Positions 6,001 through 28,964 of a stretch of DNA of 64,000 nucleotides are shown piece after piece. Below the pieces are notes generated by a model that made no database searches, was not told where the DNA came from, and saw only the letters and a list, made by a program, of their open reading frames with translations. Made by a program: the position numbers and the translations under genes. Every line of letters begins with the position of its first letter. The first letter of the stretch is position 1. The stretch is from Crossaster papposus. Taxonomy: Eukaryota > Echinodermata > Asteroidea > Velatida > Solasteridae. Location: the NCBI GenBank assembly GCA_037893245.1, contig JBAIAA010000009.1:3391824-3455823 (forward strand), given 5' to 3'.

Positions 6001-6168
6001 GATAATGTTCTCGACATATATCTGAGCTGCGAACCTCAACGTTGTTGGAGAATAAAGAAACTTTCACCACCTCCACATCTGAGCTAACATATCGCCAAAA
6101 ATTCTCACCGGAAGAGACCACAACGTTGAGACTCATGCGTCAGGACACTGGCGGCATAGGCCTATGCA
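1..6168. repeat. Satellite S1, array 1 (about 217-bp unit, about 28 copies)
   Basis: The landmark TCATGCGTCAGG recurs at 41, 258, 476, 694 and 911 and so on, giving a 217-218 bp period. Units differ by about 5-15 percent and fall into types: some read TTCGAGAATGAAGAGACACTC with an AGCTCGACATC segment, others TTGGAGAATGAAGAGACATTC with a CACCTCCACATC segment. Each unit holds two short palindromes, CATAGGCCTATG (or GGCATATGCC) and TACACGTGTA. Short open frames reading MAANEDN run through many units in both strands, but 217 is not a multiple of 3 and the frame shifts from unit to unit, so I treat the array as non-coding. The right edge is inside a unit, where element A begins. Confidence 0.95.
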
Positions 6169-6402
6169 CGCATACATGTAGACACTACCACACTGAGGGC
6201 ATACTTGTCATTCTATCCAATGGAGGACACTTGAGTGTGTGTGAATTACACCTATCAAAGTGAGGACACGACACTAAAATGCTGGTTGTCCATTGGTTTC
6301 ATATTGATGTGCATTCTAAAGTCATCAATGCGATTGCAAATTCTAAATAGTCAAGTACTCTGACGCATCCGTACATGTATGTGAACTGACGAAACACCCT
6401 GC

Positions 6403-6656
6403 TTAGCTTTGATGAAGCTTCATTTTGTTCCGACAAAAGTCTTTGATGTTCCTCCAGCTTCGTGTCTGCAGTGCCACAAGACAGGATGTTTCGATGTCTC
6501 GTTTGCCAGGAAGCTTCTTCAGCAGAAAGAATTTCTGCAAACCCTTCGTAACGTCTCCCTTCTCCTCGACAGTCCAGGGACGACGTTTCACTCGTCTCGA
6601 GTTGTTCAGAGATGCCAGACTTCCAGATGGAACACTGATAGGAGCCTGTCGAGTAC
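6403..6656 (-). CDS. Terminal exon E4: SANT/Myb-like DNA-binding tail
   Basis: The acceptor TTAG lies just above 6656 and the TAA stop is at 6403-6405. The exon encodes 84 residues. The spaced tryptophans (RPW, RSW) and the basic tail fit a SANT/Myb-like helix bundle, which recurs at the C-terminus of this invertebrate recombinase family. The same exon in copy B (18679-18932) differs by one visible codon (TSCLV against TFCLV). The opposite strand is also open for about 80 codons; I regard that as a shadow. Confidence 0.65.
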
Positions 6657-6789
6657 CTAATGTCAAATAGGAAACAAGTCGATATAAAACACAGATATTT
6701 AGGCACTTTTAATTCAGACAGCCCGATAGCCAGATGAACAAACAAATGGACAGACAGACAATTGTTTTTTTAAAGACAGCCCGACTTAA

Positions 6790-7023
6790 CCAGTTTGCGC
6801 CGGGATTATTTTAACATCGCCGAGCCCACGGGCGGGATTATTTTTTACGAAACTCGATCCAAAGCGGGTTCAGGCTGATAGTGCCGGGAAGCACACCCAC
6901 GCATTTCCGGCCTTGCGCGCTGCTGACATACATTTCCGAACTTAAACTTGGCGTGTGTATGCGTCATTCGTTTTGAATTTTAGAAAATGTTTGCGTTTAT
7001 ATACGTCATCCGGCGCGAACTGG
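6790..7023. mobile_element. TTAA-flanked MITE (piggyBac-like), in intron of copy A
   Basis: TTAA at 6786-6789 is followed by CCAGTTTGCGCCGG, and the other end reads CCGGCGCGAACTGG followed by TTAA at 7024-7027. A 14-bp TIR starting CC together with a TTAA target duplication is the piggyBac pattern. It is 234 bp and non-coding. The same insertion is in copy B at 19066-19299, so it is older than the A/B duplication. Confidence 0.8.
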
Positions 7024-7501
7024 TTAAAATACAGACACATAAAAGCCTAAACTTACTGTTTTCACTGGGCACATCACAGGAATTGTCACTGCTGTTATCG
7101 CTTTCCTCGTCACTAGTGAATCCTTCTGCAAGTCACAAAGAGCAGTTTTTGTTAGATTAATGCACACATACCTGACAGTTGGTTGTTGTCCTGCATGTAA
7201 ATTCAGAAAAGTGGACTCAACTCTTGTCAAATTTCTGTGGTCTGTTTCTTTCTATATTTCTGTATTTCTCTTTCTTGTTCTGTAATGCAGGAGCAATAGC
7301 AAAAGAAATGCACAAAAACACGTATACCATTTGTTATCATATATTGTGAACTGATAACAAAATGTTATTTCTTGCATTTCTTTCGCTGTTGAAGATGTAT
7401 TAGTGAATAGTAATTACTGATCAAATATTTTTCAACAAAAGCAATAATTAATGTCTTTCTTTTGCTGTTGAGTAAATAATTTAAAACAACTGTGTCCTTA
7501 C

Positions 7502-9267
7502 CACCAGTGACATGCAATTCATCCAGGGATTTGCCCTGCTGGGAAGGCAAGTTTCCCCTCTACAAGCTGAGAAAAAGCCTAGAAAGTTTGGTGACCCTCT
7601 GCACAGTATCTGGCAACTGGTAGTATTCACGATGGACACGCAAATCATGACCCATGAAGTTTGCAAGTGTTTCAAGTTGATGTTCCTTCAAGGCAATAAT
7701 TTGCGATGCGGTTGCCACGTGCTTACGAAGTTTTGTAGACCGGATGCTGGCAGCATTGTCAAGGCCCGTCATGTCTGCGTACACTCTTATACAGTCACAT
7801 CCTCTTATATGACCTGTACCTCCATAAGAACATCGTGCAAACAAGTAGATGTTGTCGTGGGCGACTCCAGCTTCATTTCTCTTTGCAATCAAAGCACTCA
7901 ACCACGCCACCACCTCATTGCTGAGAAGCACTGGAACAGTTCGACCCCTCTTGCCAACTATTTCGACAACTCTGAACATCTTGCACAGATGCCGTTCAAG
8001 ATCAGTCAGCAGGCATTCCCCGTTGACACTAGCTGTTGTGTGCTTCTGAAAGTCTTCTAGTTTCATCTTTGATACCTCCCCTTGCCTTCTGCGGTTGAAC
8101 ATAATAAGGTGGCACAGTGCGACTTCATTCAATCTCTTCCAAGCTGGTCCAATTTGTTCGCCCCGAGCATCCTGGACAAGTTCCACTTCTCTGTTGCCAG
8201 CTTCATGGAGGAACGCCGACATTTTCACAACATCAGCATTTGTCGGCAGAATTTTAGGTTTGTTGCGCTTTCCTTAGTACAGTGTTCTGTGTGCATGGGT
8301 GGATACACGGTCTCGCCAGGTCAGTTCGCACAACTGCAGAAATTCTTCAGCGTGTTGCGCTTTTTGCTTTTGGCCAGACTCTAGAGCATTTCCTTTAAGT
8401 ATGAGTGCACACTTCTTGATGGAATGTCCAATCTTTAAAGCTAGAGACGGAACATCATACAACTGCTTGTCTTCATTAAAGCCAGCAATACCGTGAATAG
8501 CCTTGATGATATCATTCAGGTAGTGGGGGTGGACAAATGCATTTGGCTGGTGTGTATTCTTGCGGAGTTGTATGACAAGACGACCCAATTCCCGTATCTT
8601 TTTTCGGATGTAGCCATGTTGATCTACATCGTGCCCGAGTTTCGCGTATTCCCGCTTGGCTACTTCCACAATCAAAGTGTCATTCTTGGCCAGCAGAGTC
8701 ACCTCATCTCTCTTCATCGGAATAAGAACCTGGTTTAACTGGAAAGACACACCGACAGGTGGAGGCTTTAACAAATCACTCTTGTGAGCAACACGTCTAC
8801 GCAGAGGAGTTGTGGTAGTGCTACCATGCGAGTGTGCAGGGAGTGCAGGTTTCAGTGGGCACTGGTGACGCCAGAGATCACTTCGCACATAATAGCCATA
8901 ACAATACATGCACGGTCCGTATGCATGTGGAGCTACCTTATGATTAGGCCTATATCCTACAATAAGTGCATCCCGGCCTTTCCGAAGGACTTGGCAATTG
9001 TGCCTATGATTACCAACATTGCGGATTTTCCACAGAAGTATCTTACGGGCACTTGGGTTGGTCTCAGACGCAATCTCTACAACTTCGCTCTCTTCTTTGT
9101 GACATGACTGGAGATGACGGGGCAACTTAGATTGAGGTACTTCACAGAAAAAGCAGAAGTGTTTCTTGTCCCATTTCCTGTGCCCACTTTCATTGCTGGT
9201 CTCCATGACCGTTATGTGACCGGTCTCAGTAGCCTCGGTTGATGATCTCTGTGACTCGGCACTTGAG
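7502..9267 (-). pseudogene. Core exon E2 of the recombinase gene, copy A
   Basis: The exon runs through METSNESGHRKW at 9206 downward. N-terminal part (9206-8277): two zinc-finger-like clusters, then a helical middle. C-terminal part (8228-7560): recombinase fold. Counting from MKMSAFLHEAG, the likely catalytic residues are R48 in NRRRQGEV, R168 in TKLRKHVAT, H194 in MGHDLR and the tyrosine nucleophile Y202 or Y203 in HREYYQL. The usual first His of the HxxR box is a Thr here (TKLR). In-frame codons continue upstream of the Met at 9206 to about 9380, fused to a second copy of E1. A 12-bp in-frame gap relative to copy B lies near 8530. Confidence 0.75.
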
Positions 9268-10140
9268 GCTTCATATGGAGCAGGACAAACGGCAGGTCCT
9301 GTACCAGAATCAGCCTGTGGGCCATCATCCCAACTGGAACTGCTTTGTAGACTGTCTGAACCATTTAAGTGCGAACTCCACCTGGCATAGAAATCAAATC
9401 AAAATCACATTTAATTTTAAACAAATAACAATTTCTTTGGGGAGGGGTGGGAGGGCGAGGGGAGGGCGAGGGGAGGGGGTGAAGGGGGGGGGGGGGGGGT
9501 GAAGGGGGGGTGAAGGGGGGGGGGGGGGGTGGTGCTTGCCCAAAACACTTTATTTACAAATTTGTTTCTTGCTTCTGGGCACCCAGAGTGAATATTTGAT
9601 AGGGTTCAGAAAACAAGTTCACTAATGAATCAAAATCTTACTACTTTCTATGTTGCCGGATGCAGAAAACGATTTAGAACGAGTGGAAAAAAACCCAAAC
9701 ACCACTGTTTTTTTTTTAGGGGTAGACGCATATGCCTAATTGCCTCGGACTAGTTGCCCCTCTGAAGGAGAGGGAGTGGGGAGGAGGGGGAGTGGGGAGG
9801 GGTGGGAGGGGTGGGGGGGGGGGGGGGGTGGGGGGGGGTGAAGGGGGGGGGGTGCTTGCAAAAAAACACTTGATTTATAAATTTGTTTCTGGCTTCTGGG
9901 CACCCAGAGTGAATATTTGGGTTCTGAAAACAAGTTGAGTGTGTGTGAATTACCTCATATGGAGAAGGGAAAACGGCAGGTCCTGTACCAGAATCAGCCT
10001 GGGGGCCATCATCCCAACTGGAACTGCTTTGTAGACTGTCTGAACCATTTAAGTGCGGACTCAAGAAACTCGGATGGGCCACCTGGCCTAGAAATCAAAT
10101 CAAAATCACATTTAATTTTAAACAAATAACAATTTCTTTG
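9258..10140 (-). repeat. Internal duplication of exon E1 and its flank in copy A
   Basis: The segment encoding SDSLQSSSSWDDGPQADSG occurs twice: at about 9275-9385 and 9954-10087. The right copy has a good acceptor (TTTCTAG) and donor (GAG|GTAATT). The left copy has lost the acceptor (CTAT) and reads straight into E2. Between them lie two G-rich runs, each followed by a CTTCTGGGCACCCAGAGTGAAT segment. Copy B holds only the right copy (27146-27279). Confidence 0.75.
9434..9533 (+). repeat. G-rich tract, quadruplex-capable
   Basis: About 100 bases made of GGGGAGGG, GGGCGAGG and long G runs with TGAA interruptions. A second tract of the same kind is at 9770-9854, and copy B has one at 27007-27044. 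Each stands next to the same GTGCTTGC segment, so they are copies of one ancestral tract. Lengths of the G runs may be sequencing-dependent. Confidence 0.85.
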
Positions 10141-10314
10141 GGTTATCTCTAAAATATACTATCCATTTTAACACCATCACAAGCAACAACATCCGCCCTT
10201 GATGTGCAACTTAACTGACGACATACCGGTATTTATCCTCTTCATAAAAAGATATGTAATTCAAATGAGAATTTGTGTCATGTGCATTCATTATATGACT
10301 TCTAAGACTTCTAA

Positions 10315-10352
10315 GGCACTTAGGGAGACACTAAAATGTCTCCCTAAGTGCC
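10315..10352. other. Perfect 16-bp hairpin in intron of copy A
   Basis: GGCACTTAGGGAGACA, a six-base loop CTAAAA, then the exact reverse complement. It is unchanged in copy B at 27507-27544. In A a further partial copy of one arm (GTCTCCCCAAGTGCC) follows at about 10398. Function unknown; it may be a remnant of a small inverted-repeat element. Confidence 0.8.
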
Positions 10353-10854
10353 ACTGTCTCTTTATTACCTAAAAACTTACGCTAGTTTGTCTCCCCAAGT
10401 GCCTATTTGGAAGAATTATTCTTCCTAACCTGTCTGTTGTTAATTAATGCATTCTACGGTACTTTTCTCACCTGGTGCTCAAATAGGCAGCGTGTCACAC
10501 CATCAGTGTACCGGACGCAGTACTTTCATGATAAGAAAGCCACAAATTCAACTAATTAAACTTTAAAGGGATTACATGCAATTGGGAGTGGAATGTTGAA
10601 AAGTATTTGTTGTTTACAGATCATATATATTTTTGGTTCTGAAGGGGGGGGGGGAATCAAGTTTAGAAAAAAATGGCATTGTTTATTTACATGTGGTACA
10701 TGTCATGGGGGGATGTAAGAGGGTATACAGCTGTCTTAATTTATGTGTGACAAATGGGATTCTACATTATGGATTACATTTCTTACCTACGGAACCCCTA
10801 ATGGGACATATGACGAATAGTAATCACCGTGACAAAATAAATTTAGTTTTGTAT

Positions 10855-11030
10855 TTCTTGCCCACGAAATCATTTCGTGCCCATGAAATCATTTCGTGCC
10901 CACGAAATCATTTCCCGTGCGCTCGAAAAAAATAATTTCATGAGCTCGAAATAATTTGTGTGCTCGAAATAATTTATTTTTTGTGCGCTTGAAATAATTT
11001 CCTGCGCTCGAAATCATTTTGTGCAATTGT
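10855..11030. repeat. Short-unit minisatellite (CGAAATAATTT-type)
   Basis: Repeats of GTGCCCACGAAATCATTTC and then GTGCGCTCGAAATAATTT type, with short palindromes such as CACGAAATCATTTCGTG. It lies in the intron between E0 and E1. Copy B holds a shorter version at about 28050-28200. Confidence 0.7.
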
Positions 11031-11154
11031 TAGAAATCGGTTAAGTAAATATGTTTTACAGCACGGTCTTGACGCAAGGTTAACGTGAACCCACAAATTA
11101 CAAGGGCATTCCATTTGTTTTCGTCATATGTCCTTTTAGAGGCTCCGCACTTAC

Positions 11155-11281
11155 CTTTGGTGAAGGAGATTATTACGGCAGGATACCATGATGAATCTGG
11201 AGGCCACAGTGCGATTACGTTCTCCCCTTCATGATGCTGGTGATTTGTCAAGGTTCCATCAAGACGACTACTTCGTTTCAT
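11155..11281 (-). CDS. First coding exon E0 of the recombinase gene, copy A
   Basis: It starts at ATG 11281-11279 and ends at donor AAAG|GTAAG. It encodes 42 residues ending in a Tudor/PWWP-like ALWPPDSSWYPAVIISFTK stretch. It ends in phase 1, and E1 opens with two bases in the matching phase after TCTAG. Copy B has ATA instead of the ATG (28451-28453). Whether a further 5' exon exists cannot be seen. Confidence 0.55.
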
Positions 11282-11782
11282 GTTTGTTATGGTAGTTCTG
11301 TCAGCCACACCTAGACTACACAACAATACAACAACAATATACCATTAAACTGATAATACAATTAAATATTAATAATTGTGGCTACTTATTTGTTTTATTA
11401 TTTATACAATAACTACAATTAACTATTTCTTGTTCGCACGGTGCTCAACAACTCATGCTTGCGTTGGAAAAATAAAGCAGTTAAATTTGGTTATAACTTC
11501 TATATTATTCTGAAATTAGGCATATTCACTTCCCATATCATCCTATAGACTAGATTAAGAGATCGAGGCCATGACTACAAATTACATTACAACGTAAATT
11601 AGCACGTCATATATGTCATACTCTGCTACATTCATACTCATAGCGAGTAACATGCAAGCTTCCAAATACAATTGCTCTACTTACCATTTATTTCAGCTCC
11701 ATGGTACACCTAGCTAGCTGCAAATGACCACGTCTTCGCATAAACTACAATATGCACTTAGGCCAAAACAACGTTATAATAG

Positions 11783-13070
11783 TTAAGACATGTCTGGGCT
11801 GGTTTAATTAGAGACATGTTGTCATGTAATGTACACATGTAATGTACATGTTTACATTTACGTCATTGTCACACGCGCAACCAACGGAGGGCGCTATGCC
11901 ATTCAGAGTAATCCCGTTTGCGGTTTTGTTGACGAGGTACAAAATGTGCATACTGCCTCACGTCAGGTCTTATGCGTCAACCGAGGACTCCTCCCAAACG
12001 CTTTGATATTTAACCAACAGTCAAAAACGGCCACAAAAGTGCCATTTTTCACAATATTTCATACCGAGGACGCGCTCGGTTTGCAAGGTGTCCTCAGTAT
12101 GTGAGTGTGTACTTACATAAAAGCCCTCCCTTTGCGGTATTGACATGTACACGCATAGACGTCGTCATGCACCTTGGATGACTGTGATATTTTCTCAGTC
12201 CGTACAGAATATTTATACAGTTTGAGCATCCTATCGAAGTATTCACTTCAAAAGGATTTAAATACCCCAACAATCTAGTATTGTAAAGTATTGTTAACCC
12301 ACTGTTGACCACTGCATATTGTCTGAATCCTGAAAAAAAAATCGCGTGGATTGGATCAGTAGTCGACTCGATAGACCACGATAAACCACGGAAATGTACC
12401 CATTTTCACGGAAATATATATTTCCTTGAAGTAACACGCGAAGGGGGGAAACGAAGGCCCCAAGCTCTAGCATATTTCGTAGGTCATGAATTTACAACTT
12501 TAGTTAATGATTTAAATGAACGATTGACCATACTGCATCTAAAGTAAGAATAGTCAAGTATAATTTTTGTTTTGTACCGACGGTCAACCCTTTCTGATTT
12601 TATTACCATTTTAGAGGTTCCAAACATGCATTAATGACGATTTTCAAGCATAAGAGTGTGATGGACCTGTACAATTTGTGCCTATATGGAAATTACTGGA
12701 AGGGACAATAATTAATGTACAAAATAGCCAAATTATTGAGGGTCTATCGTCTGGTCTACCGTCGGGATTACCGAGCACGGTCGACCACGATTCAATAGTG
12801 CCCTTTCGGGCTACGACGTGTGACATAACCATTACTTCAATCTGATTGGTTAAAACTTTTAAAAAACGTTGGCGGCGCTAGGGACATGCATGATCATTGA
12901 ATGAAATGACCCGAGCTGGTTCTTATTGTTATTATAACTAGATCTAGAGAAAACATGCAAATTGGTTTGCAAAACAGGTGACAGGTTCCCCCGCCACCCC
13001 AAATCCTCTCAAAAATTCCAAAAATTGGCTCGCTAGATATATAAAGCCCATACATATATAAAGCCCATGA
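11783..13070. other. Spacer, no gene recognised
   Basis: This is the left part of the 6.7-kb spacer X between the two recombinase elements. Open frames up to 91 codons are present on both strands without recognisable domains or splice structure. I see nothing else I can support here. Confidence 0.6.
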
Positions 13071-13071
13071 T

Positions 13072-14104
13072 TATACCAATCCCATCGGCAAAATCATTCG
13101 TAGGCATGGCATTTCATTTCATGAATACGCAGATGATATCCAGCTTTATGCTGAGTTTGACCCTAAATCTGAAGGTGATTGTCAACAGGTACTTGGCAAT
13201 TTATCATCTTGCGTTTTCATGATAAGTGAATGGATGTCTCAAAACATGCTGAAGCTTAACCAAGACAAGACTGAGTTCATTGTTTTCGCCAGTAATCATG
13301 TTGTTTCTAATCTCCCTGATCTCCACTTAAAATTGGGAGACGTATCCATTCCAGCTTCCACATCCATTAAGGACTTAGGAGTCACACTGGATTCTTCTTT
13401 GAATATGTCTCATCACGTTAGCTCTCTGTGCAAAACTGTTAACTTCCACATACGCAACCTGTGGCGTATTCGCCGATTTATTACACAGGATGCCTGCCAT
13501 CACGCTGTCAGAGGTCTGGTCCTGTCCCGTCTCGACTATGCGAACTCTCTTTTGCTAGGCGCTCGTGAAAAAGATCTCAAACGGTTACAGCGCCTACAAA
13601 ACAAGGCTGCTCGGCTGGTTTTCGCATGCGGCCGGGACCAGCCTTCTGAGGGCCTGCTGGCAGAGCTACATTGGCTCCCTGTTAAACAGAGGATAACCTT
13701 CAAAATCTTCACCCATGTGTACAAAATTCTCAACACTCAAGCTCCATCATATCTGGTTGACCTATTACATTCATATCATTCAAATATTCCTGATGCCTAC
13801 AGACACCGACTCCGCTCATCAGCTGATCAGACCCGGCTTTCTGTCCCTAGAAGTAGGAAGAAAGCCGGAGATAGTTCTTTCGCTGTGGTCGCTCCTCGCC
13901 TGTGGAATGAGCTTCCTACCTGTCTGAGAGAGGCGGTCTCGCTGCCTGTATTCAAACGTCTCCTTAAGACATTCTTGTTCCAAGTCCAATTGTAATCGTA
14001 TTGTGTCTGTTTCTCTTTTTGTTAATTTGTGTGGTTGTGTGTTAAGCGCTTTGTTCTTCGTAAGGCGCTATATAAATGCTTTGTATTATTATTATTATTA
14101 TTAC
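13072..14104 (+). mobile_element. 5'-truncated LINE (CR1/L2-like), 3' end of reverse-transcriptase ORF
   Basis: An uninterrupted frame from about 13072 to the stop at 13993-13995 encodes the C-terminal 307 residues of a non-LTR retrotransposon polyprotein. It holds the reverse-transcriptase active-site box YADDIQLY at 13126-13149, then NMLKLNQDKTEF, a SIKDLGVTLD segment and the C-terminal LWNELPTCLR motif. The 3' UTR has the GCGCTATATAA signature and ends in (ATT)n at 14085-14103. The endonuclease and 5' RT are missing, as in typical target-primed truncation. Relative to the nested LINE at 21900-25509 it is a related but distinct copy, and here the YADD box is intact. Confidence 0.9.
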
Positions 14105-14172
14105 ATTCGGGTCACTTGTGTCTACACGCTTAGAGAATTGCATTAACTGAAACTGTGGTCTTTGAAACCATC

Positions 14173-15786
14173 ATGGAGAACCTTCAATTACTTGGAACTC
14201 GCCAGGTACGTCAAGTATATTTAATAACATATAGCCAATGTGACGAAAGGCTTGTGCCAAATCGTGACGCCTTCGCACACATTGTAGTGGAAGCTTTCAT
14301 CAGTGTGACACACGATCCAATGTCAGTCGTTTGCTGGGCTTGCTGTAAAAAACCACACCAGCAAGGGGGTTTTCATTATCACATGGTGGTAAAACTTCGA
14401 CTTCCAAGACGCTGGCTACATGTACGACAATGTTTATCTACTGTGCATGGCATTAATGTAAACTTTTCGTCCAATCACACTAATTACTACAGTGCATGGC
14501 AGTATGTCGTCAAAGAAGACATTCTTTATATTCAGTCCCCCAACCATCCAGATTTGACCGGACCCCCTCAAACAGCAAGTGCTTCAGCTGCACGCAGTCA
14601 CCAAGACACCGTAGAGAGACCGACGAAGAAAAGGAAAACACGTTTAACTCCCTTTGATGTAAGCAAAATAGTGGAGTCAAATGACATTCGTACACGATTG
14701 GAGTTGCTAGCCTTTGCCCGTGAACAAGAACAGCTTGGAAAAACCGATCTCACACAGTTTATCGTCAACAGGGGCGACAAAGTCGTGCAACAGGTTCTTA
14801 AGGTAGACATGCACATATTGAAATATAGTTGGACTCGTAAACATCAATGTCCATTCAATTCAAATGTATTTTAACAACTTCCAAGACAAAAACAGGTAAT
14901 AAAAACAATTAGAATCCTGTATATAAACTGTTATTAACATAATATATAATACTGATGAAAGACAAATAGAAAATAGTGTTCAAATAAGTAAGTTGGTTAT
15001 ACCCCCTGCACACCTATTTCGAAAAAACAACTACCCCCCTCCCCTCCCCCAGTTAAAAAGTATTACTATAGTTTTAATAGTATATATTCTATTTGTTTCA
15101 ACCTTTTCTTAGACTGCCTGGGAACTACATGGGGCAACAGATTCACTTGAACGGTACAGAATGACGAGACTTCAAATCTTGGAGAGAGCTTTTTCTGACG
15201 ATGACTGCATTTGTCAGGGTGACTGGCTACGATGCGCCATTGAGATACTTCAGAGAAATGGGTTGATCAAATAGGGTTTTCTCAATGTGTGCAAACTCTT
15301 TTGGATAAAGGAAGGGGAAAATATAGAAATGTAATGCTAGTAGGGCCCGCTAATTGTGGAAAAACATTTTTATTGAATCCACTTAACCAAATATATAAAA
15401 CCTTCACTAATCCGGCTACAACTACATTTGCCTGGGTTGGTGCAGAGCAAGCTGAATTTATTTTTCTAAATGACTTTCGTTGGTCTCCCAAGATTTTGCC
15501 ATGGCAAGATCTTCTGTTATTACTAGAAGGAAAACTTGTACACTTACCAGCTCCCAAATCACACTTTGCTCAAGATCTCGTCTTGGATAAGGACACCCCA
15601 ATATTTAGCACATGTAAACCCCAACTCATCTTCATTCAGGGAGGTGTAGTGGATGAGCGTGAAACTGAGATGATGGCAGTTCGTTGGAAAGTTTTCCTAA
15701 TGCACTACCAGATACCTGAGGATAAACAGCAACGTGTACCTGCATGTACACGTTGCTTCGCCTCGCTAATCTTAAATAAGGACTAA
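14173..15786 (+). pseudogene. HUH endonuclease - SF3 helicase Rep-like protein (spliced, one frame break)
   Basis: Exon 1 is 14173-14802 (donor AAG|GTAGAC), exon 2 is 15113-15786 (acceptor TTCTTAG), both phase 0. From the ATG at 14173: motif I YLITYSQ at residues 16-22, motif II HYH at 68-70 (metal-binding His pair), motif III YVVK at 111-114 with the single nicking tyrosine. A basic PTKKRK stretch near residues 151-156 could be a nuclear signal. Exon 2 holds the SF3 core: Walker A GPANCGKT (about 15343), a Walker B-like FIFLNDF, and motif C TPIFSTCK. Such Reps nick one strand and unwind DNA for rolling-circle or rolling-hairpin replication. The frame is broken by a one-base shift near 15260, followed by TAG at 15274-15276, so this copy is dead or the base is an error. 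CRESS-virus, parvovirus-like or transposon (Replitron-like) origin are all possible. Confidence 0.8.
15728..15757. other. 12-bp-stem hairpin inside the Rep C-terminal codons
   Basis: AGCAACGTGTAC (15728-15739), loop CTGCAT, then the exact reverse complement (15746-15757). It overlaps the codons for QQRVPACTRC. A diverged copy of the same stretch, still with both arms, stands at about 16712-16760, beyond the TTAA elements. It could be a Rep recognition hairpin, but that is a guess. Confidence 0.65.
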
Positions 15787-15920
15787 TTAATAACAATTTG
15801 TAACAAGTAATGTAATCCCAGAGGATGAACATTACTACTATAAAACACAATCTTAAAACTTGTAAATGAAAGAAAAAACACCCAAGTGGGCCCCACGACT
15901 AAGTTGTTACCGATGTTTAA

Positions 15921-16686
15921 AGGTAGGATACACCATTGGTCATTGCTTGAATTATCATGAATGAGTAGATTTGGGGGGTTGTATTTAGAGTAAATATCGT
16001 TTAACTGGGCTGTCCGAAGTTTTAAAATCATGGATGCCGAGAAAAGCACGAAAAACCGCGTTGTTTTTTTCAACCGGCACAGAGCAGTTATTCTAATGTT
16101 ATCTTTGTATTTTCGCGCTCGCCGTCCGGCGATCGCGAATTTTTCATTATAAAATTATATTTTTAGGAAGAATTACAGGCAATCTAGCGCAATTATGTTG
16201 CTGGATGCCCAGAATCGACATTTAATTTACATTTACACGTTGCTTTTACATCCCAAGTTTTAAATAAGAATTTATATCATTGTGTCATTACTAAAACATT
16301 TAAAGGTAGTATACACCATTGGTAATTGCTTGAATTATCATTAATGGTTAGATTTGGGGGGTTGTATTTCAGAGTAAATATCGTCTAACTGACCTGTCCG
16401 AAGTTTTACAATCATATATACTAAGAAAAGCACAAAAACAGCGTTTGTTTTCAACCGGCGTCGAGCAGTTATTTCTTATGTTATTTTGGGGGTTTTCACG
16501 ATCACCGTCCGGTGATCGCGAATTTGTCTTTATAAAAATTTCAAGTTTTCGAAATAATTACAGGATATCCAGCGAAATTATTTGGCTGGATGCCTAGAAT
16601 CACTATTTACTATCAAATGAGTAAGATATTTCCTAATAATTCGCTAGTAAATATTTTTCGATATCTGCAAATGGTGTATCCTACCT
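15921..16686. mobile_element. TTAA-flanked MITE: one complete copy and one partial tandem copy
   Basis: TTAA at 16300-16303 is followed by AGGTAGTATACACCATTGG, and the element ends ATGGTGTATCCTACCT with TTAA at 16687-16690, giving a complete 383-bp element 16304-16686. A second copy of its left three quarters, in the same orientation, begins at 15921 after TTAA at 15917-15920 and lacks the right end. Non-coding. The target site resembles piggyBac or Kolobok-type elements. Similar TTAAAGG elements are common in echinoderm genomes, from memory. Confidence 0.8.
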
Positions 16687-16822
16687 TTAATGAACGGCAA
16701 TTTTCCTGTTGGAACAGCAACGTGTACAAACCATATGTACTCGTTGCTTTGCCTCATGAAGGTTAAATGATAATTTAAAAAAATGTTCAATAATTCATCG
16801 CTTTCCATGGTGGTTTCAAATA

Positions 16823-17035
16823 TGGGTCATTCAACCAGGTTGGACTACGATTTGTGACGTATCAAGTTGTTACATTTGTAAATGTGCCATCTATTATCCT
16901 TTCTATTGAAGCAGCAGAGATTGATTTAATTTAAATTTAAAGCACAACCTTACTTAAGGATAATAGATGGTACATTTACAGACGCAACAACTTGACGTCG
17001 TCACAAATCGTTGTGTAACCTGGTGGAATGACCCA
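16823..17035. mobile_element. TA-flanked foldback MITE (mariner-like)
   Basis: TA at 16821-16822 then TGGGTCATTCAACCAGGTT; the right end reads AACCTGGTGGAATGACCCA then TA at 17036-17037. The two arms, about 80 bases each, are imperfect reverse complements over almost their whole length, with an AT-rich centre near 16920-16950. It is 213 bp and non-coding. It lies within the right part of the Rep element. Confidence 0.8.
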
Positions 17036-17368
17036 TATACCGTACCGGAAAGAAAATGACCTGCTCTGTGAGAAGTTGACATGTTCCACTATTAACATAG
17101 TAAGCGTAATTTGTCTGAACAGTTTAACGCGCTTGCTCCTTGCCCAAAAGGCCCCCCCCCCCCTCCCCCCACACCCAAACAAAAATAAACAATCAATAAA
17201 TAAATCACTAAATAAATGAAAGGGCCTATGAAATACCAGAAATGTCCACCAAAATATAAACAAGTCATTAAAAGGTTGATTGTAAGACTCATTATTGGTT
17301 GCGACTTGTCAACTTTTCACAGAGCAGGTAACAAAAATTCTCTAAGCGTGTAGACACTTAAAACAATA

Positions 17369-17524
17369 TGTGACCTGGCCCAACAAAATGGGTATAAAGT
17401 CGCAACAATCCAAAAATGTATATATTTGTATATCTTAATAGAGCAAGAAAATAGTTTTCAAATCAAATCCGATAACTTAAAAAAATGATGCGACTTTCTA
17501 CTCATTTTGTGGTGCCATGTCACA
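17369..17524. mobile_element. Short inverted-repeat element (TGTGACCTGG type)
   Basis: The left arm TGTGACCTGGCCCAACAAAA continues as ATGGGTATAAAGTCGC, and the right arm is an imperfect reverse complement ending CATGTCACA. About 28 of 35 arm bases match. It starts 12 bases beyond the right terminal repeat of the Rep element. No target duplication is certain. Confidence 0.65.
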
Positions 17525-18444
17525 TGTTAAAGCCCCTATAACAATTTGTTAATTACCCGATTACAAACTGACAAAATTACAAGATGAAACGTTACTTGGT
17601 ATGAAGTTTATAATGGTATCAAACCTTTGTAGAAGTTTCCCTGCCTGAAATGCTCACATTGTAGAGAAAATGGCAAAACATTTACCGAAAAATTTTAGTC
17701 CTAAAAAATGCTGGCTACATTTGGTCTATTCTGATTCACTTGGAAAAACCATTTCACTTTTTTATTTTTTTTTTCAAAAATGTGAGCACTTACGGAGATG
17801 AAACTTTCACAAGGTTAGTTTCGGATGTGTATATAAACCATAGAGCTATATTAAATTACTAGAGCACTGGCTGGATGTACAAAGTGATGCGAGCTGGGCG
17901 CATCCATGTTTGTGCACAAACCTATGGAAACCTCAAACTTTTGTACGGCTATTTGCATTTGTATTCTATACAATGCGTTACCAAAACCAAAACGCATGAT
18001 CAGCAAATAATGTATACCCGCTGTAAATAAATTAATACAATAATGAAATAATAATTAAAAAATAAAATAATAATGAAATAAAAAAGTATTTTTCAAATAA
18101 CTAATTCCTTGTGTATTAATGTGTCCCTTGTAGCAAATGTAGTAAAAGGCACTTTCTATTTCTAAACAAACACCCCCCCCCCCCCCCCCCCAATACAATG
18201 TTGAACGACCGGGGTGCACAGGGGTTTGTACAGAAAGTCCACTCTCTCAACTCTCAACATTGTATTGGGGGGGGGGGGGGGGTGTGAATGATAAACTTGT
18301 AAAATTTCTACATTGTATTGGTGGCGAGGGGGAGTGGTGGCGGTATTTATAAATAGAAAGTGTGCATATTAAAACCTATCCCACAAGCGTTTCACAAGAC
18401 ACGTTCACACGGAATGTTTAATTGGATACATGCACCCACTCCAT
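17525..18444. other. Spacer with poly-C/poly-G inverted structure
   Basis: AT-rich sequence without a recognisable gene. At 18148-18366 nested inverted repeats occur: an outer pair GCACTTTCTATTT (near 18149) and AAATAGAAAGTG (near 18351), and an inner pair of C19 (18173-18191) followed by AATACAATGTTGA and TCAACATTGTATT followed by G16 (18267-18282). The whole could fold into a cruciform. Confidence 0.65.
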
Positions 18445-19065
18445 CATACATGTAGACACTACCACACTGAGGGCATACTTGTCATTCTATCCAATGGAGG
18501 ACACTTGAGTGTGTGTGTGAATTACACCTATCAAAGTGAGGACACGACACTAAAATGCTGGTTGTCCATTGGTTTCATATTGATGTGCATTCTAAAGTCA
18601 TCATTGCGATTGCAAATTCTAAATAGTCAAGTACTCTGACGCATCCGTACATGTATGTGAACTGACGAAACACCCTGCTTAGCTTTGATGAAGCTTCATT
18701 TTGTTCCGACAAAAGTCTTTGATGTTCCTCCAGCTTCGTGTCTGCAGTGCCACAAGACAGAATGTTTCGATGTCTCGTTTGCCAGGAAGCTTCTTCAGCA
18801 GAAAGAATTTCTGCAAACCCTTCGTAACGTCTCCCTTCTCCTCGACAGTCCAGGGACGACGTTTCACTCGTCTCGAGTTGTTCAGAGATGCCAGACTTCC
18901 AGATGGAACACTGATAGGAGCCTGTCGAGTACCTAATGTCAAATAGGAAACAGGTCGATATAAAACACAGATATTTAGGCACTTTTAATTCAGACAGCCC
19001 GATAGCCAGATGAACAAACAAATGGACAGACAGACAATTGTTTTTTTAAAGACAGCCCGACTTAA

Positions 19066-19299
19066 CCAGTTTGCGCCGGGATTATTTTAACATCGCCGAG
19101 CCCACGGGCGGGATTATTTTTTACGAAACTCGATCCGAAGCGGGTTCAGGCTGATAGTGCCGGGAAGCACACCCACGCATTTCCGGCCTTGCGCGCTGCT
19201 GACATACATTTCCGAACTTGAACTTGGCGTGTTTATGCGTCATTCGTTTTGAATTTTGGAAAATTGTTGCGTTTATATACGTCATCCGGCGCGAACTGG
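19066..19299. mobile_element. TTAA-flanked MITE (piggyBac-like), copy B
   Basis: The same insertion as at 6790-7023: TTAA, CCAGTTTGCGCCGG ... CCGGCGCGAACTGG, TTAA. It has a handful of base differences from the copy in A, including TGTGTATG against TGTTTATG. Confidence 0.8.
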
Positions 19300-19364
19300 T
19301 TAAAATACAGACACATAAAAGCCTAAACTTACTGTTTTCACTGGGCACATCACAGGAATTGTCA

Positions 19365-19727
19365 AATAATAATAATAATAATGCTAGTTCTTATATAGCG
19401 CTTTTAGACTCCCACAAATGTGGGTGTATCAAAGCGCTTTATTATTACCCCGGTCATTGGGCCCATGAAACACTCCAAATACCATCTCAGCTCCCTGGGG
19501 AGTATACAGCTCGATGCTGCCATTTCGGCGCAAAGCAGCTAAATCAACCACAATAACCATCTCTGCCCTCACAGGTACCCATTTACTCCTGGGTGGAGAG
19601 AAGCAATGAGTGACAAAGTGCCTTGCCCAAGGGCACACGCACCGTAGTCCCAGGCAGGACTCGAACCCACAACCTGCAGCTTTACCTACAGATTACAAAT
19701 TCAATGCTCCAGACCACGAGACCACGG
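19365..19727 (-). mobile_element. tRNA-derived SINE inserted in exon E3 of copy B
   Basis: Read on the minus strand, it begins with a tRNA-like head containing a box-A-like TGGTCTCGTGGTC and box B GGGTTCGAGTCC, followed by GCCTTGGGCAAGGCAC. It ends with a LINE-like 3' end AAAGCGCTATATAAGAACT and an (ATT)n tail. The empty site is preserved in copy A (GGAATTGTCACTGCTG at about 7080). At most a 2-bp duplication (CA) is seen. The 3' end resembles the tails of the LINEs in this window, suggesting shared retrotransposition machinery. Confidence 0.85.
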
Positions 19728-20896
19728 CACTGCTGTTATCGCTGTCCTCGTCACTAGTGAAGCCTTCTGCAAGTCACAAAGAGCAGTTTTTGTTAGATTA
19801 ATGCACACATACCTGACAGTTGGTTGTTGTCCTGCATGTAAATTCAGAAAATTGGACTCAACTCTTGTCAAATTTCTGTGGTCTGTTTCTTTCTATTTTT
19901 CTTTATTTCTCTTTCTTGTTCTGTAATGCAGGAGCAATAGCAAAAGAAATGCACAAAAACACGTATACCATTTGTTATCATATATTGTGAACTGATAACA
20001 AAATGTTATTTCTTGCATTTCTTTCGCTGTTGAAGATGTATTAGTGAATAGTAATTACTGATCAAATATTTTTCAACAAAAGCAATAATTAATGTCTTTC
20101 TTTTGCTGTTGAGTAAATAATTTAAAACAACTGTGTCCTTACCACCAGTGACATGCAGTTCATCCAGGGATTTGCCCTGCTGGGAAGGCAAGTTTCCCCT
20201 CTCCAAGCTGAGAAAAAGCCTAGAAAGTTTGGTGACCCTCTGCACAGTATCTGGCAACTGGTAGTATTCACGATGGACACGCAAATCATGACCCATGAAG
20301 TTTGCAAATGTTTCAAGTTGATGTTCCTTCAAGGCAAGAATTTGCGATGCGGTTGCCACGTGCTTACGAAGTTTTGTAGACCGGATGCTGGCAGCATTGT
20401 CAAGGCCCGCCATGTCTGCGTACACTCTTATACAGTCACATCCTCTTATATGACCTGTACCTCCATAAGAACATCGTGCAAACAAGTAGGTGTTGTCGTG
20501 GGCGACTCCAGCTTCATTTCTCTTCGCAATCAGAGCACTCAACAACGCCACCACCTCATTGCTGAGAAGCACTGGACCCAGCTAACAATCGGACGTTTTC
20601 TGAACGTTTTTTTAACGTTTTAAATTGTTTTTTTAAACGTTCAAAAAAAAACGTTTTGTAAACGTTTTTTTGTGGTAGGTTTTGGACGTTTAAAAAACGT
20701 TTTTATTGAACGTTTAAAAAACCAATTTAAAACGTTTAAAAAACCAATTTAAAACATTGTCTCGTATTCGTTTTCCAGACCACCTCTCCAGAAAACATTT
20801 AGACGTTTAGAAAACCTTTTAAGAACGTTTAGAAAACCTTTAAGAACGTCTAGAAAACCTTTTAAGAACGTTTAGAAAACCCTTTAAGAACGTCTA

Positions 20897-21541
20897 CACT
20901 GCAAAAACTGTGGTGTTAAATTGTACACCAATGGTGTAAAATTTGATTATTTCCTGGTGTTTATTTTGGGCATATTGTACATATTAACTGCATGGACAAA
21001 TTACGTAATGAAATATTACAAAGAACTGACTTATTACACATTACACATCCATATACAATAATAATCTATTCCTACTGAATACGTACTACACACATAGCCA
21101 TTGCCGTTGTTAGTTTTATACTACGCTTTTTTGTCCACGACGAAGTCGCAGCTAGTTTTTATGAATAATGTCAAAATTTGAAAACGAATAAAATGTAACG
21201 CGAATTTTTAACTATGTTTGCACAAAAATCAAAATTCAATCATGGAATCGTTTAAATAATTACATATTATGGTAAAATAAATGGGTTTTTGGACTAAATA
21301 CAACAATTTAACATCGACTATTGTTAACATATACCATAATTCCTTATCGACCAATCAGAGGGCTTTATTTCACACACGCATGCGCACTAGGTCAAATTTA
21401 ACACCAAAAGTACGTAACACCAGTACTTGATTTGAAACTAATACTTCAAGAATCATTTTACTTCATTTTAACACCAATGTTCATTCCAAAAGATTAAAAA
21501 AACATTGGTGTTAAAATTTTAACACCACAGTTTTTGCAGTG
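20897..21541. mobile_element. CACTG-type MITE (CACTA/EnSpm-like ends)
   Basis: A 24-bp perfect TIR starting CACTGCAAAAACTGTGGTG bounds 645 bp of AT-rich non-coding sequence. Internal ACACCAATGGTGT motifs recur near both ends. The CACTG terminus fits the CACTA/EnSpm group. Flanking duplication is not clear. It is nested in the AACGTTT element. Confidence 0.8.
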
Positions 21542-21899
21542 CCTTTTTAGGACGTCTAGAAAACCTTTAGACGTTTAAAAAACCTTTTAAGAACGTCTAG
21601 AAAACCTTTTAAAAACGTTCAAAAAACCTTTTAAGAACGTTCAGAAAACCTTTTAAGAACGTCTAGAAAACCTTTTAAGAACGTTCAGAAAACCTATTCA
21701 GAACGTTCAGAAAACCTTTCAAGAACATCCAACATAGCGTTTGAATATAAACGATGGCATGCACGCTGTACGTAGGCGGCCAGCCAGGCCGCGCCGGCGC
21801 ACCGCATGATATCGATGTCACAAAATATAACAATTACGTACATCAACGACGTCGACGACGACCATATGGGCCACACGATGAGGATGACGATCATGATCA

Positions 21900-24800
21900 T
21901 CATCATAATCATAATCACAGTAATACTGGCGCTGTTTTGCTGCTGCCACACACACATTTCTGCTCCCTAAATGTCATCTGTTTTGGGCTACTTTCTCTTT
22001 GTTTTTCACTTCAAAATTCGGATCATGTTGAGTTTATGTTTCAGAGCATCTCCTGATCAAGATTGGAGTGATTTTATCGTAATCTTCTAGGTGGATTTTT
22101 GATGTGTTTTTCTTGTACCTGGTTGTGACTTTCCTACATAGAACTTGTGCATCCATTATACACATTAGCCTTTTCGCTTTGTTGGCTATTGGAATGCAAA
22201 TAAGTGCTTTGTGCACCACCAACAGGATATGGTGAACAATAGATATGGATCAGTTCAGTGCCTACAGCCATTGAAATACACCAGGTCCCAGCTGCTTGCA
22301 TTAAGAAGTAAAGCTGTCAAACAAATACCTTTTGATGCTTATTGTGCTTTGAAGGACAATGGCTTGCTACATGTGAGGGGCAGGCGTGGAGGTGCCCACA
22401 TGCATAAATCAAAGCATGTACATGTACATGTACGAAATGTGAAAAGTAAATTGTCATCTGATAATCAAGCTACAACAACATGCAGGCATGAACTTGATGT
22501 TAGGCACTGGAACGTCCACTCTGCATGCAACAAAACTTGCTATGTGGCTGACTATGCTATCGAACATAATGTAGATGTTTTATTCTTGACTGAAACCTGG
22601 CTACGTGAGGGTGATAATGTTATAATAGGTGAACTTAAACCTCCGGGTTACTCATTCTTAAATGTCCCCCCGATCATCCGACGAGGATCATCATGGGGGG
22701 ATAGGGATTCTTTCTAAGAGTGAACTCAATCTGCAACTTGTTCCTGGTATTCTTCCAGATACACTAACCTTTGAACACGCTTTGGTATCCAACACTACAA
22801 GAGACATTCACTTTGTAGTTATCTACAGACCCCCTCCTTCAGCTAAAAATGGCTTACGTACTTCCTCATTCTTATCAGAGTTTGACAACTTTATTGATGC
22901 TGCAAGTCTGCTGCCAGGTATCCTTGTGCTGATGGGTGATATGAATATTCATTTTGATATTCCAGGGAAATCAGACGTGGCTTATGTTCTATCTTCACTC
23001 TCTGCAAATGGTCTTGTACAGAACATCTCGGGGCCAACACACAGGTTGGGACATACACTTGACCCTATCATCACTCGTGTTGATGGTGATAGTTTGATGA
23101 ACTACAAAGTTCACGTCAATCATATCTCTGATCACCACGTGGTATGTGCTTCTCTAAGAGTGTCTCATCCTGAGTTGATATCAACAAAAAAAACATACAG
23201 GAACTTCAAAGACATGGATCACTCTAAATTTGCCTCTGAGCTCGCGGCTAAACTTGATGTTCCTAAAGCTAATAATGGGACTGCTGATGAATGTCCTCTC
23301 AATAAGATCGTATCGGAATTCGACTCTGCCGTCCAGGAGACTCTTGACTCTACTGCTCCCATAAAGACAGTCACCATCAAGGCTCGTCGCAGGCCCAGGT
23401 GGTATAACTCGACAATAGGGGATTCACGCCGTGAACGCCGCCGATGTGAAAGGCGGTGGGGAAAACACAAGACCGATGTGAATTTGAGCGCTTTCCAAGC
23501 TGCAAAACTTCATGTCAAAAAGTGCATCACCATGGCCAAGTGTGAATACTTCACCTGTGCTCTTGAGGAGTGTACTCCAAAGACTGCCTTCCAAGTACTG
23601 AATAGGTTACTGAACACCAATGAAAAGGTTCTTCCTGTACATGACTTGCCAGCTGCATTAGCAGACAGATTTGCCAACTTCTTCACTGATAAAGTCTTGA
23701 AGATTCGGAATGAACTTGATGCCAACGACCCCGATCCAATGTTCACATCTTGCTGTAATCAGGGGATAGGTCTTCGGTTCCGAGAGTTCGCTGAAGTATC
23801 TGAGAGTGAAGTGGAGAATATCATCAAACGTTCATCCTCAAAGAGCTGCTCCCTTGACCCTCTACCAACATGGCTGTTGAAGAAACATCTGAGAGTTGTA
23901 CTTCCTGAACTTGTTCATCTTACGAACCAGGTTCTGTCTAGTGGTGTCTTTCCTACAGATCTCAAAGAGGCGCTAGTGTTACCAGTCATCAAGAAAGCGT
24001 CACTGGATAGAAATGATCTGCGGAGCTATCGCCCTGTATCAAACATACCATTTCGGTCTAAGATTATCGAGCGAATAATGCTTAGACAACTTACTGAGCA
24101 CATCCAGGATAATGGACTTGCTGAGCCTATGCAATCGGCATACAAAGAACACCATAGCACTGAAACAGCACTACTTAAGATTCAGACGGATTTACTTCAA
24201 GCCATTGACAGTCAGAAAGGAGTAATGATGGTGCTGCTTGACTTGTCCGCTGCGTTTGACACAGTGGACCATAAGATTCTGCTGAATCGTCTTGAAGACC
24301 ATTTTGGTATTACAGGTCTCGCTCTCAAGCTTATCCATTCATACCTTGAAGACCGGAACAGCCATGTTCTAATCTCTGGTCAGCTTTCGAAAGCTTGTAG
24401 ATTGCCACATGGAATTCCACAAGGTTCTGTCATCGGACCCTTGTTTTTCACCCTTTACATTCGTCCCATTGGTGATATTCTTCGGGCTCATGGAGTATTA
24501 TTTCACATGTATGCAGATGAAATTCAGATCTACGTGATGTTTGACCCAACTGATCCAGTTGCAATTGATGCTGCACTTGGCAGACTCAATAGCTGTATCA
24601 CTGAAATTCAGCGTTGGATGAATGCAAACAAGCTCAAACTCAACGATGGCAAGACTGAATTCTTTGTCTCTGCTTCACCGCATCATCGGTCATCCCATCT
24701 AATGAACGATGTCAAACTGATGATTGGTGAGAAATCCTTCCAACCATGTAAGTCCATCCGCAATCTGGGAGTAACACTTGAACCATCTGTGAACTTAAGT

Positions 24801-25509
24801 CTTCATGTCAACCTTCTCAGCAGAAGCATCAAGTACCACCTACGTAACCTGTGGAGGGTGAGGCGGTTTATTGATAAGTCAACATGCCACGCTGCGGCAA
24901 GGGCTCTTGTCCTTTCCAGACTAGACTACTGCAACAGTCTCTTCAGTGTTCTCAGCCAGAGGGACCTTGATCGCCTTCAGAGACTCCAAAACTCAGCAGC
25001 AAGGCTTGTCTTCGCTGCTCCTCTTCGGACTCACATACAACCTCTTCGACTTGAACTCCACTGGCTGCCTGTACGACAGAGAATAGCTTTTAAGATCCTA
25101 CTACTGGTCTACAAGTCTCTCAACCACCGATGTCCCCCGTACATAGCTGACTGCTTGGTTCGTCGTCCTCAAGTCCGACATACCCGCTCATCATCATCCA
25201 TCTGGCTCACTCAGCGTCTCTCTAAGAAACGTGCTGGTGAATTGTCTTTTCCATCGGTTGCTGCAAAACTGTGGAACCAACTACCTACTGCTGTGCAGTC
25301 GGCCTCATCTGTTGACCAGTTCAAGAAACTACTCAAGTCACATCTATTCTGCTAGAAATTACTTATTACCAGCCTACATATACTTTACTGATCTCTGAGA
25401 AGTGTCTAACTTTTGTTTTAAGTGGCCCAAACATTGTGGAGCGTGTGTGCAGCGCTTTGTAACTGCAAGGAAAAGGCGCTATATCAAATATCTTTTGGAT
25501 TGGATTTGA
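21900..25509 (+). mobile_element. Near full-length non-LTR retrotransposon (CR1/L2-like), nested
   Basis: It contains an endonuclease/reverse-transcriptase ORF (22211-25355) and a short 3' UTR with AAAAGGCGCTATATC. Both flanks are ATC/ATAATC microsatellite (about 21880-21930 and 25510-25560), so it sits in, or has generated, such a repeat. The exact 5' end is uncertain. No separate ORF1 is visible. It lies within the AACGTTT element, in the orientation opposite to the recombinase gene. Confidence 0.85.
22211..25355 (+). pseudogene. LINE polyprotein: AP endonuclease and reverse transcriptase (one frame break)
   Basis: The frame starts at about 22211 (MHHQQDMVN) and passes through the endonuclease: LFLTETWL, then GDMNIHFD, then ISDHHVV. 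It then runs through the RT: RSYRPVSNIPF, DLSAAFDTVDH, GIPQGSVIGPLFF and the catalytic box, here YADE instead of YADD (about 24509-24520). The thumb and C-terminal LWNQLPTAVQ follow. The frame shifts by one base in the C6 run at 22666-22671, splitting it into a 168-codon and an 897-codon frame. The Asp-to-Glu change hits the second catalytic Asp, so this copy is probably inactive even without the shift. Confidence 0.88.
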
Positions 25510-27506: not shown

Positions 27507-27544
27507 GGCACTTAGGGAGACACTAAAATGTCTCCCTAAGTGCC
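27507..27544. other. Perfect 16-bp hairpin, copy B
   Basis: Identical to the hairpin at 10315-10352: GGCACTTAGGGAGACA, loop CTAAAA, reverse complement. It stands in the intron upstream of exon E1. Confidence 0.75.
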
Positions 27545-28964
27545 ACTGTCTCTGTGCTAGTTTGTCTCCACAAGTGCCTATTTGGAAGAATTACGCATTT
27601 CATTTGTATTCTTCCTAACCTGTCTGTTGTTAATTAATGTATTCTATGGTAATTTTCTCACCTGGTGCTCAAATAGGCAGCGTGTCACACCATCAGTGTA
27701 CCGGACGCAGTACTTTCCTGATAAGAAAGCCACAAATTCAACTAATTAAACTTTAAAGGGATTACATGCAATTGGGAGTGGAATGTTGAAAAGTATTTGT
27801 TGTTTACAGATCATATATATTTTTGGTTCTAAAGGGGGGGGGGAGGAATCAAGTTTAGGAAAAATGGCATTGTTTATTTACATGTGGTACATGTCATGGG
27901 GGGATGTAAGAGGGTATACAGCTGTCTTAATTTATGTGTGACAAATGGGATTCTACATTATGGATTACATTTCTTACCTACGGAACCCCTAATGGGACAT
28001 ATGACGAATAGTAATCACCGTGACAAAATAAATTTAGTTTTGGATTTCTTGCCCATGAAATCATTTCGTGCCCACGAAATCATTTCCCGTGCGCTCGAAA
28101 AAAATAATTTCATGAGCTCGAAATAATTTGTGTGCTCGAAATAATTTATTTTTTGTGCGCTTGAAATAATTTCCTGCGCTCGAAATCATTTTGTGCAATT
28201 GTTAGAAATCGGTTAAGTAAATATGTTTTACAGCACGGTCTTGACGCAAGGTTAACGTGAACCCACAAATTACGAGGGCATTCCATTTGTTTTCGTCATA
28301 TGTCCTTTTAGAGGCTCTGCACTTACCTTTGGTGAAGGAGATTATTACGGCAGGATACCATGATGAATCTGGAGGCCACAGTGCGATTACGTTCTCCCCT
28401 TCATGATGCTGGTGATTTGTCAAGGTTCCATCAAGACGACTACTTCGTTTTATGTTTGTTATGGTAGTTCTGTCAGCCACACCTAGACTACACAACAATA
28501 CAACAACAGTATACCATTAAACTGATTAAACTGATAAACTTACAATTAAATATTAATAATTGTGGCTACTTATTTGTTTTATTATTTATACAATAACTAC
28601 AATTAACTATTTCTTGTTCGCACGGTGCTCAACAACTCATGCTTGCGTTGGAAAAATAAAGCAGTTAAATTTGGTTATAACTTCTATATTATTCTGAAAT
28701 TAGTCATATTCACTTCCCATATCATCCTATAGACTAGATTAAGAGATCGAGGCCATGACTACAAATTACATTACAACGTAAATTAGCACGTCATATATGT
28801 CATACTCTGCTACAGTCATACTCATAGCGAGTAACATGCAAGCTTCCAAATACAATAGCTCTACTTACCATTTATTTCAGCTCCAGGGTACACCTAGCTA
28901 GCTGCAAATGACCACGTCTTCGCATAAACTACACTATGCACTTAGGCCAAAACAACGTTATAAT

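Follow-up and report, generated by a model that had tools for sequence, protein, structure and literature searches.

Which element carries a Rep gene in an animal genome, where does that element end, and what moves it? The question is raised by a stretch of 64,000 nucleotides from the sea star Crossaster papposus (assembly GCA_037893245.1, contig JBAIAA010000009.1, positions 3,391,824 to 3,455,823; the whole stretch is called the window here), in which a Rep gene joining an HUH endonuclease to a superfamily 3 (SF3) helicase lies between two inverted repeats of 22 bp. An initial annotation had taken these repeats for terminal inverted repeats (TIRs) bounding the element. Comparison of copies places the ends elsewhere, at a core common to the Rep unit and to a Crypton-like element, X, that lies beside it. 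We propose that the gene probably sits in a 5.2-kb mobile cassette, with its own HUH-SF3 replicase resembling those of circular Rep-encoding single-stranded (CRESS) DNA viruses, and that the tyrosine recombinase of X, an element with the same attachment (att) core, excises this cassette and integrates it.

Results

The Rep unit ends at a core shared with X

The features on which the argument turns are, in window coordinates:

6167..12149, minus strand: element X (Crypton-like), left copy, right end ...GGTATTGACATGTA, placed by comparing copies and ends
7560..9398, minus strand: putative tyrosine recombinase gene of X, with one internal in-frame stop in this copy and open in other copies
12143..12155, plus strand: att core ACATGTACACGCA at the X/Rep-unit junction, common to X and the Rep unit
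12150..18440, plus strand: family-A Rep unit, CACGCATAGACG ... GCACCCACT, delimited in fetched loci by 20 left junctions and 16 right ones; 5245 bp without its insert
13056..14101, plus strand: insert in the window copy, ending just before the left arm of the inverted pair; 13055 joins 14102 in other copies
18433..18446, plus strand: right end of the Rep unit, CACCCACT, with the 6-bp overlap CCATCA
18447..28966, minus strand: X', another copy of X, which is cut short on the right and has an insert at about 20577-25984

A 1.8-kb family-A probe, which starts at 14100 and so covers only a few bases outside the left arm, gave 41 scored matches in the 1.02-Gb genome at 94-100% identity; Rep is a multicopy gene and, by all appearances, a mobile one. 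Not one of these matches begins at 14118, the outer base of the left arm, and 39 begin at or before 14102. In the 20 family-A loci fetched (9.9 kb each) homology always continues past the left arm. Two of them, L019 and L020, stop short of the right arm, and in the other 18 homology runs on beyond it as well; the ends of the copies lie 0.9-1.4 kb further out than the arms and are not inverted repeats with a target site duplication (TSD). The claim that the pair bounds the element as terminal repeats does not survive this comparison. The insert at 13056-14101, presumably the 3' part of a long interspersed nuclear element (LINE), is missing from 19 of the 20 loci.

The 20 family-A left junctions all have the sequence CACGCA-TAGACGTC. 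Their left neighbour is the right end of X in 14, the right end of a divergent relative, X2, in two, another Rep unit in three and host DNA in one, which is to say that 16 of 20 adjoin an X-type right end. The 16 right junctions lead into X or X2 (nine), a Rep unit (three) or other DNA (three), with one truncated; head-to-tail A-A order is seen in these loci. This sample contains one locus without a left end (L026) and some that are apparently allelic, namely the window with L009 and L015, which have the overlap CCATCA in common, L010 with L013, and L027 with L028. On the right the 6-bp overlap varies (CACGCA, CATACA, CACCCA, CATAGA, CACACA, CATGCA and CCATCA) while the sequence inside it does not change, the pattern that strand exchange within 6 bp should leave. 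When the ends of X are joined they form inverted arms around 6 bp, TTGACATGTA-Cnnnnn-TACATGTAGA, and the one solo host site, at L024, is core-like (ACATGTA-CACACA-CATGTAC). The core measures 6 bp in family A and 13 bp in family B, and a TSD is inseparable from it. To judge by these sequences, the true ends of the Rep unit carry a core of tyrosine-recombinase type that is shared with X. No recombinase was seen within the Rep unit, and among the stop-to-stop frames listed for unit A the only ones above 123 amino acids (aa) are Rep and the LINE-like insert.

In three of the nine right junctions with X or X2 (L018, L023 and L026) the Rep unit is separated from the left end of X, each time at the same junction, by a 190-bp insert, AGTGGGTAAATGCC...AAAACAAAC, which opens with a mirror of ACCCACT, the right end of the Rep unit.

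A second Rep family joins X at the same core

When the SF3 protein was compared with the genome, the best 150 of 335 candidates were scored; they comprise family A (43 matches, 90-100% identity), family B (54, 77-79%), families C and D (about 55-62%) and a further group of 17 matches at 59% with one or two stops each. No internal stop is present in 127 of the 150. Family B was delimited with a unit taken from L053, where the period is 5204 bp, which gave 19 scored copies from 7845 first-look candidates, 18 further rows of 57-bp matches being set aside. All 19 copies begin at one point and 16 end at one point (three end earlier), and the overlap of start and end is the 13-bp core ACATGTACACGCA. 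They start 0.97 kb and end 1.4 kb outside the arms of their inverted pair, and none starts or ends at an arm. The four B loci read on both sides all have the order X-B-X, C355 shows B-X-B, and every one of these junctions falls at ACATGTACACGCA; thus two diverged Rep families, A and B, join one X at one core. B-B order occurs in L053, and at C146 five B units follow one another about 5.2 kb apart (judged by spacing only).

A fossil SF3 fragment with two stops was also noted at L051 (5242-5790), between the piggyBac-type ends of that locus.

Element X and its recombinase

X measures 6-7.5 kb, and no TIRs were seen on it. The window copy and the X of L055 are 96% identical over 6167-10234 and 90% near the right end. 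In L055, where X lies between B units, the recombinase is an open reading frame (ORF) of 685 aa, and in L050, where X lies between A units, a 600-residue recombinase match runs without a stop. The nearest named relatives of the recombinase, as of Rep, are sea-star proteins (Asterias, Acanthaster). Relatives of the recombinase match Phage_integrase with E values down to 1e-5, below the curated Pfam cut-off (0.064 for the window piece), and DUF3504 is not among the listed domain matches. They share the conserved blocks FNRRRQGEVSKMK, STKLRKHVAT and FMGHD..VHREYY, which we take to be the catalytic boxes.

Among the 40 best X places, ranked by score and hence biased to long ones, 29 leave the family-A query at the right end of X, ten run into an A unit and one stops earlier. 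The twenty fetched comprise 19 from the group of 29 and L049 from the group of ten. The right end of X falls on the same base in all 19 of the former; beyond it, 18 continue into DNA of 15 kinds, none of it from A or B (L030 equals L037; L041, L043 and L048 are alike), and one, L045, runs into a family-B unit.

X' holds a stop-free frame of 897 aa (22662-25355), which we assume to be a LINE ORF.

The Rep gene and its predicted protein

14173..14802, plus strand: Rep exon 1, HUH endonuclease with HYH and YVVK, 210 codons
14803..15112, plus strand: Rep intron (GT...AG), predicted from sequence
15113..15786, plus strand: Rep exon 2 with SF3 helicase motif GPANCGKT (SF3 part 15244-15786), frame broken in the window copy
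14118..14139, plus strand: left arm of the inverted pair, 33 bp upstream of the Rep start codon
17336..17357, minus strand: right arm, 100% complementary to the left arm over 22 nt

Exon 1 and the SF3 part are both present at 14173-15786, and the spliced HUH-SF3 gene of the initial annotation holds, its motifs being in place, the domain models agreeing and the intron being sequence-based; the open frames of several Rep relatives terminate near the position of this intron. A frame change disrupts exon 2 in the window copy, and in at least 12 of the 20 fetched family-A loci the parts of both exons matched by tblastn have neither stop nor frame change. Exons change more slowly than their surroundings: across 21 copies (14 for the downstream part) they differ by 1.0%, against 2.1% upstream, 3.1% in the intron and 1.8% downstream, and the ratio of nonsynonymous to synonymous polymorphism (pN/pS) is 0.47 for exon 1 and 0.32 for part of exon 2.

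The exon-1 and SF3 domains were modelled apart with AlphaFold2. The exon-1 model (mean pLDDT 84.6) matches HUH domains of CRESS viruses, best 7vg8 and 9pqf, with CRESS-like matches also in BFVD; the CRESS Reps compared were those of a geminivirus and of Redondoviridae. The SF3 model, of which one of five was confident (83.6, the other four 57-61), matches Rep40/68 of adeno-associated virus (AAV), papillomavirus E1 and B19 NS1. On these models Rep would combine the HUH and SF3 domains that characterise an endogenous CRESS virus or parvovirus. A large protein collection contains 675 relatives of the SF3 part at E <= 0.01, the closest among the best 120 of them, at 76% identity, coming from the sea star Asterias rubens, and 21 relatives of the HUH exon; no Pfam profile scored above its cut-off on Rep.

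An inverted pair inside the unit

The perfect 22-bp pair around Rep, as first described, is a real feature of the locus. For each family the 150 element bases upstream of the Rep start were subjected to 300 dinucleotide shuffles, and in A, B and C none of the 300 reached the observed length of the pair (22/22, 25/25 and 20/20, respectively); in family A no shuffle gave a perfect inverted match with other parts of the unit longer than 13. Family D is weaker, at 17/18: an 18-mer with at most one mismatch was reached in two of 300 shuffles, and a perfect pair was rejected for this family, its longest perfect match being ordinary (reached by 30 of 300). The first arm stands 22-49 bp before the Rep start (33 in A, 49 in B, 22 in C, 41 in D) and the second 1-5 kb past the Rep stop, in family C recurring inside a tandem repeat of about 690 bp. 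In A and B the distance from the pair to the end of the unit is 0.92-0.97 kb on the left and 1.08-1.40 kb on the right. The letters of the arms differ from family to family, and the arms of A, B and C are not found in X (best matches with 6-10 mismatches). Further copies in which the same pair brackets Rep, which the initial annotation had suggested seeking, do exist: 19 fetched loci were compared (L009 was left out), and both arms are identical to those of the window in 12 of the 17 where both could be read.

The pair is internal to the Rep unit and not its end, and it most likely represents Rep's own pair of cis-sites. We also considered the arms as tyrosine-recombinase sites that flip Rep, as in the 2-micron plasmid. 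The family-A arm reads TCTA-CACGCT-TAGA, and CACGC occurs in the att core as well; such flipping is not favoured, because a single orientation occurs among the fetched A loci with both sides read and the arms of B-D lack the core.

Surrounding satellites

1..6166, no strand assigned: 217-bp satellite array, from self-comparison, with X beginning at its edge

Some units of this array contain GTACACGCAT, which is close to the att core. A second 217-bp array occupies 29123-35571, so that arrays flank the X-Rep-X' block, and a 370-bp tandem array fills 48391-64000, its shifted self-matches being mostly more than 99% alike.

Discussion

A model for the movement of the Rep cassette

We propose a model in which a recombinase acting in trans and a replicase acting on its own unit would together account for the arrangements seen at this locus. 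The recombinase of X would recombine the cores that flank the Rep unit, X, or X and Rep together, and circles would be released. Rep would act at the internal inverted pair on either side of its gene, the pair serving as its cis-sites, and would copy the circle by rolling-circle replication, which may also yield head-to-tail multimers. The recombinase would reinsert the circles, usually into the cores of resident X or Rep units, giving X-Rep-X and Rep-Rep orders, and rarely into a core-like site in host DNA. A cassette moved by X is the simplest reading since the ends match X to the base, the unit has no recombinase that we could see, the host site at L024 is core-like, and the right-hand overlap varies. 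A broader statement, which we offer tentatively and which in our judgement falls a little short of an even chance, is that this is a two-part eukaryotic system in which a single att core is recognised both by HUH-SF3 cassettes that lack a recombinase and by a distinct Crypton-like recombinase element; replication and integration would then come from different elements that recombine with one another, and the cassettes could also pair with piggyBac, as in families C and D.

Several observations weigh against the model. X does not need Rep, as 29 of its 40 best places leave the family-A query and 18 of the 19 read have neither A nor B. Open piggyBac transposases of 505 and 503 aa, 56% identical to each other, lie outside the inverted pair in families C and D (L051 and L052), divergently transcribed from Rep, and no X-like recombinase is found there; Rep units may thus use other partners, which speaks against X as the sole one. 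Two other loci (C61 and C592) match family D from the piggyBac end onwards only, and family D is, on its sequence, possibly a piggyBac composite. The arms of family A are not better conserved than the unit around them, as 33% and 47% of all 22-mers do as well, and we saw no motif that the arms of the different families share. Independent junction events are fewer than loci because some loci look allelic, and the locus counts are inflated by alleles. Finally, no circle, excision product or empty site was seen, and we infer excision, circles, rolling-circle copying and the action of the recombinase in trans.

Alternative explanations

The alternative that survives best, which we nevertheless regard as unlikely, makes X and the Rep unit a single composite of about 12 kb with divergently transcribed recombinase and Rep genes, the X-only copies having lost Rep. 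Repeated spacings would suit it (X-B at about 12.7 kb twice at C355 and 13.4 kb at C1253, X2-A at about 12.06 kb at C792), as would the constant order of X followed by Rep. It accords poorly with the precise right end that X has of its own, followed by the 15 kinds of non-Rep DNA, with Rep-Rep junctions that have no X between them, and with the joining of the same X by two Rep families.

Somewhat less likely still is that adjacency merely reflects a common preference for a target motif in TACATGTAC-rich DNA, with Rep integrating by an unseen route of its own, such as HUH-mediated strand transfer. The core-like target in host DNA at L024 fits such a preference, and the part of a review on Replitrons available to us describes short direct terminal repeats on these elements (PMC10741241). 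A shared preference does not readily account for junctions that are base-exact against the ends of X on both sides, nor for a 6-bp overlap that, in family A, varies on the right and not on the left.

We think it improbable that the unit is an endogenous CRESS- or parvovirus-like virus that integrated beside X by chance and was amplified by tandem duplication in the host. The CRESS-like HUH fold and an SF3 domain of the AAV/E1/NS1 kind are what such an origin would leave. Set against this are the precise recurrent core, the apparent intron and the predominance of stop-free SF3 matches. Besides Rep and the LINE-like insert no long frame is listed in unit A, and none of at least 150 aa in the B unit of L053, no capsid profile search having been made. 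Three word-pattern scans of IMG/VR viral contigs, of limited reach, confirmed no relative of Rep, phage records held none of the SF3 part and plasmids none of the HUH part. GTDB genomes gave one weak SF3-like match, 34% over a short stretch, in a metagenome-assembled genome of Campylobacterales (L064, 3001-3171).

A Rep transposon nested in other elements and bounded by the pair as TIRs, as first annotated, is highly improbable and is rejected on the copy ends, since matches do not begin or end at the arms in A or B, homology runs beyond both, and the arm letters are family-specific, despite the perfect pair in A, B and C and the near-perfect one in D within flanks that differ between families, and despite L012, where the match breaks at the outer base of the right arm and resumes 100 bases further on.

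Comparison with known systems

For eukaryotic transposons that use tyrosine recombinases, movement by way of circles is the prevailing view, and it is not obvious how they multiply. If our model is correct, a replicase cassette sharing att cores with such an element would provide an answer, and CRESS-like Reps would be linked to transposons rather than to viruses. Since the core, the unit orders and the inverted pair recur in more than one family, this can be checked against sequence data from other species.

Cryptons have been proposed to move as circles (Kojima & Jurka 2011, PMC3212892), and X resembles them, as they are described in the available part of that paper, in its putative tyrosine recombinase, in its apparent ends of short core type and in that no TIRs were seen (PMC3212892). 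It differs in a recombinase that stays below the Phage_integrase cut-off with no DUF3504 listed, and in its size and its hosting of Rep cassettes at its core. The words 'helicase' and 'Rep protein' have no occurrence in the accessible text of the Crypton paper (PMC3212892). Replitrons are given in the available part of a review as elements of 0.9-4 kb with direct terminal repeats of 5-11 bp and TSDs of 2-8 bp (PMC10741241). The Rep unit is like them in its eukaryotic HUH endonuclease, ends without TIRs and apparent short terminal direct repeats, and is set apart, on that review's description, by its 5.2 kb, outside the size given, its internal inverted pair, an overlap in common with X and perhaps its SF3 domain (PMC10741241). 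Among the literature matches listed, we found no published description of an HUH-SF3 unit seated at the att core of a Crypton, the search lying outside most subscription papers and the original Replitron paper.

With the Reps of CRESS-DNA viruses the protein shares the HUH fold with HxH and YxxK motifs and an SF3 helicase behind it; the unit differs in being an apparently spliced genomic cassette with att cores, in which inverted sites flank the gene. Helitrons have an HUH enzyme fused to an SF1 helicase and, like the Rep unit, occur in tandem copies, whereas the helicase part of Rep appears from its structure matches to be SF3-like rather than SF1, and the unit is inserted at a core shared with X. 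The parts are thus known, and their combination is not one known to us. A further likeness is offered by the integrative plasmids, integrative and conjugative elements and satellites of prokaryotes, in which a tyrosine integrase inserts the element, a Rep copies the circle, and tandem integration takes place at shared att sites. Usually these functions belong to one element, whereas here they would be divided between two separate modules in an animal genome.

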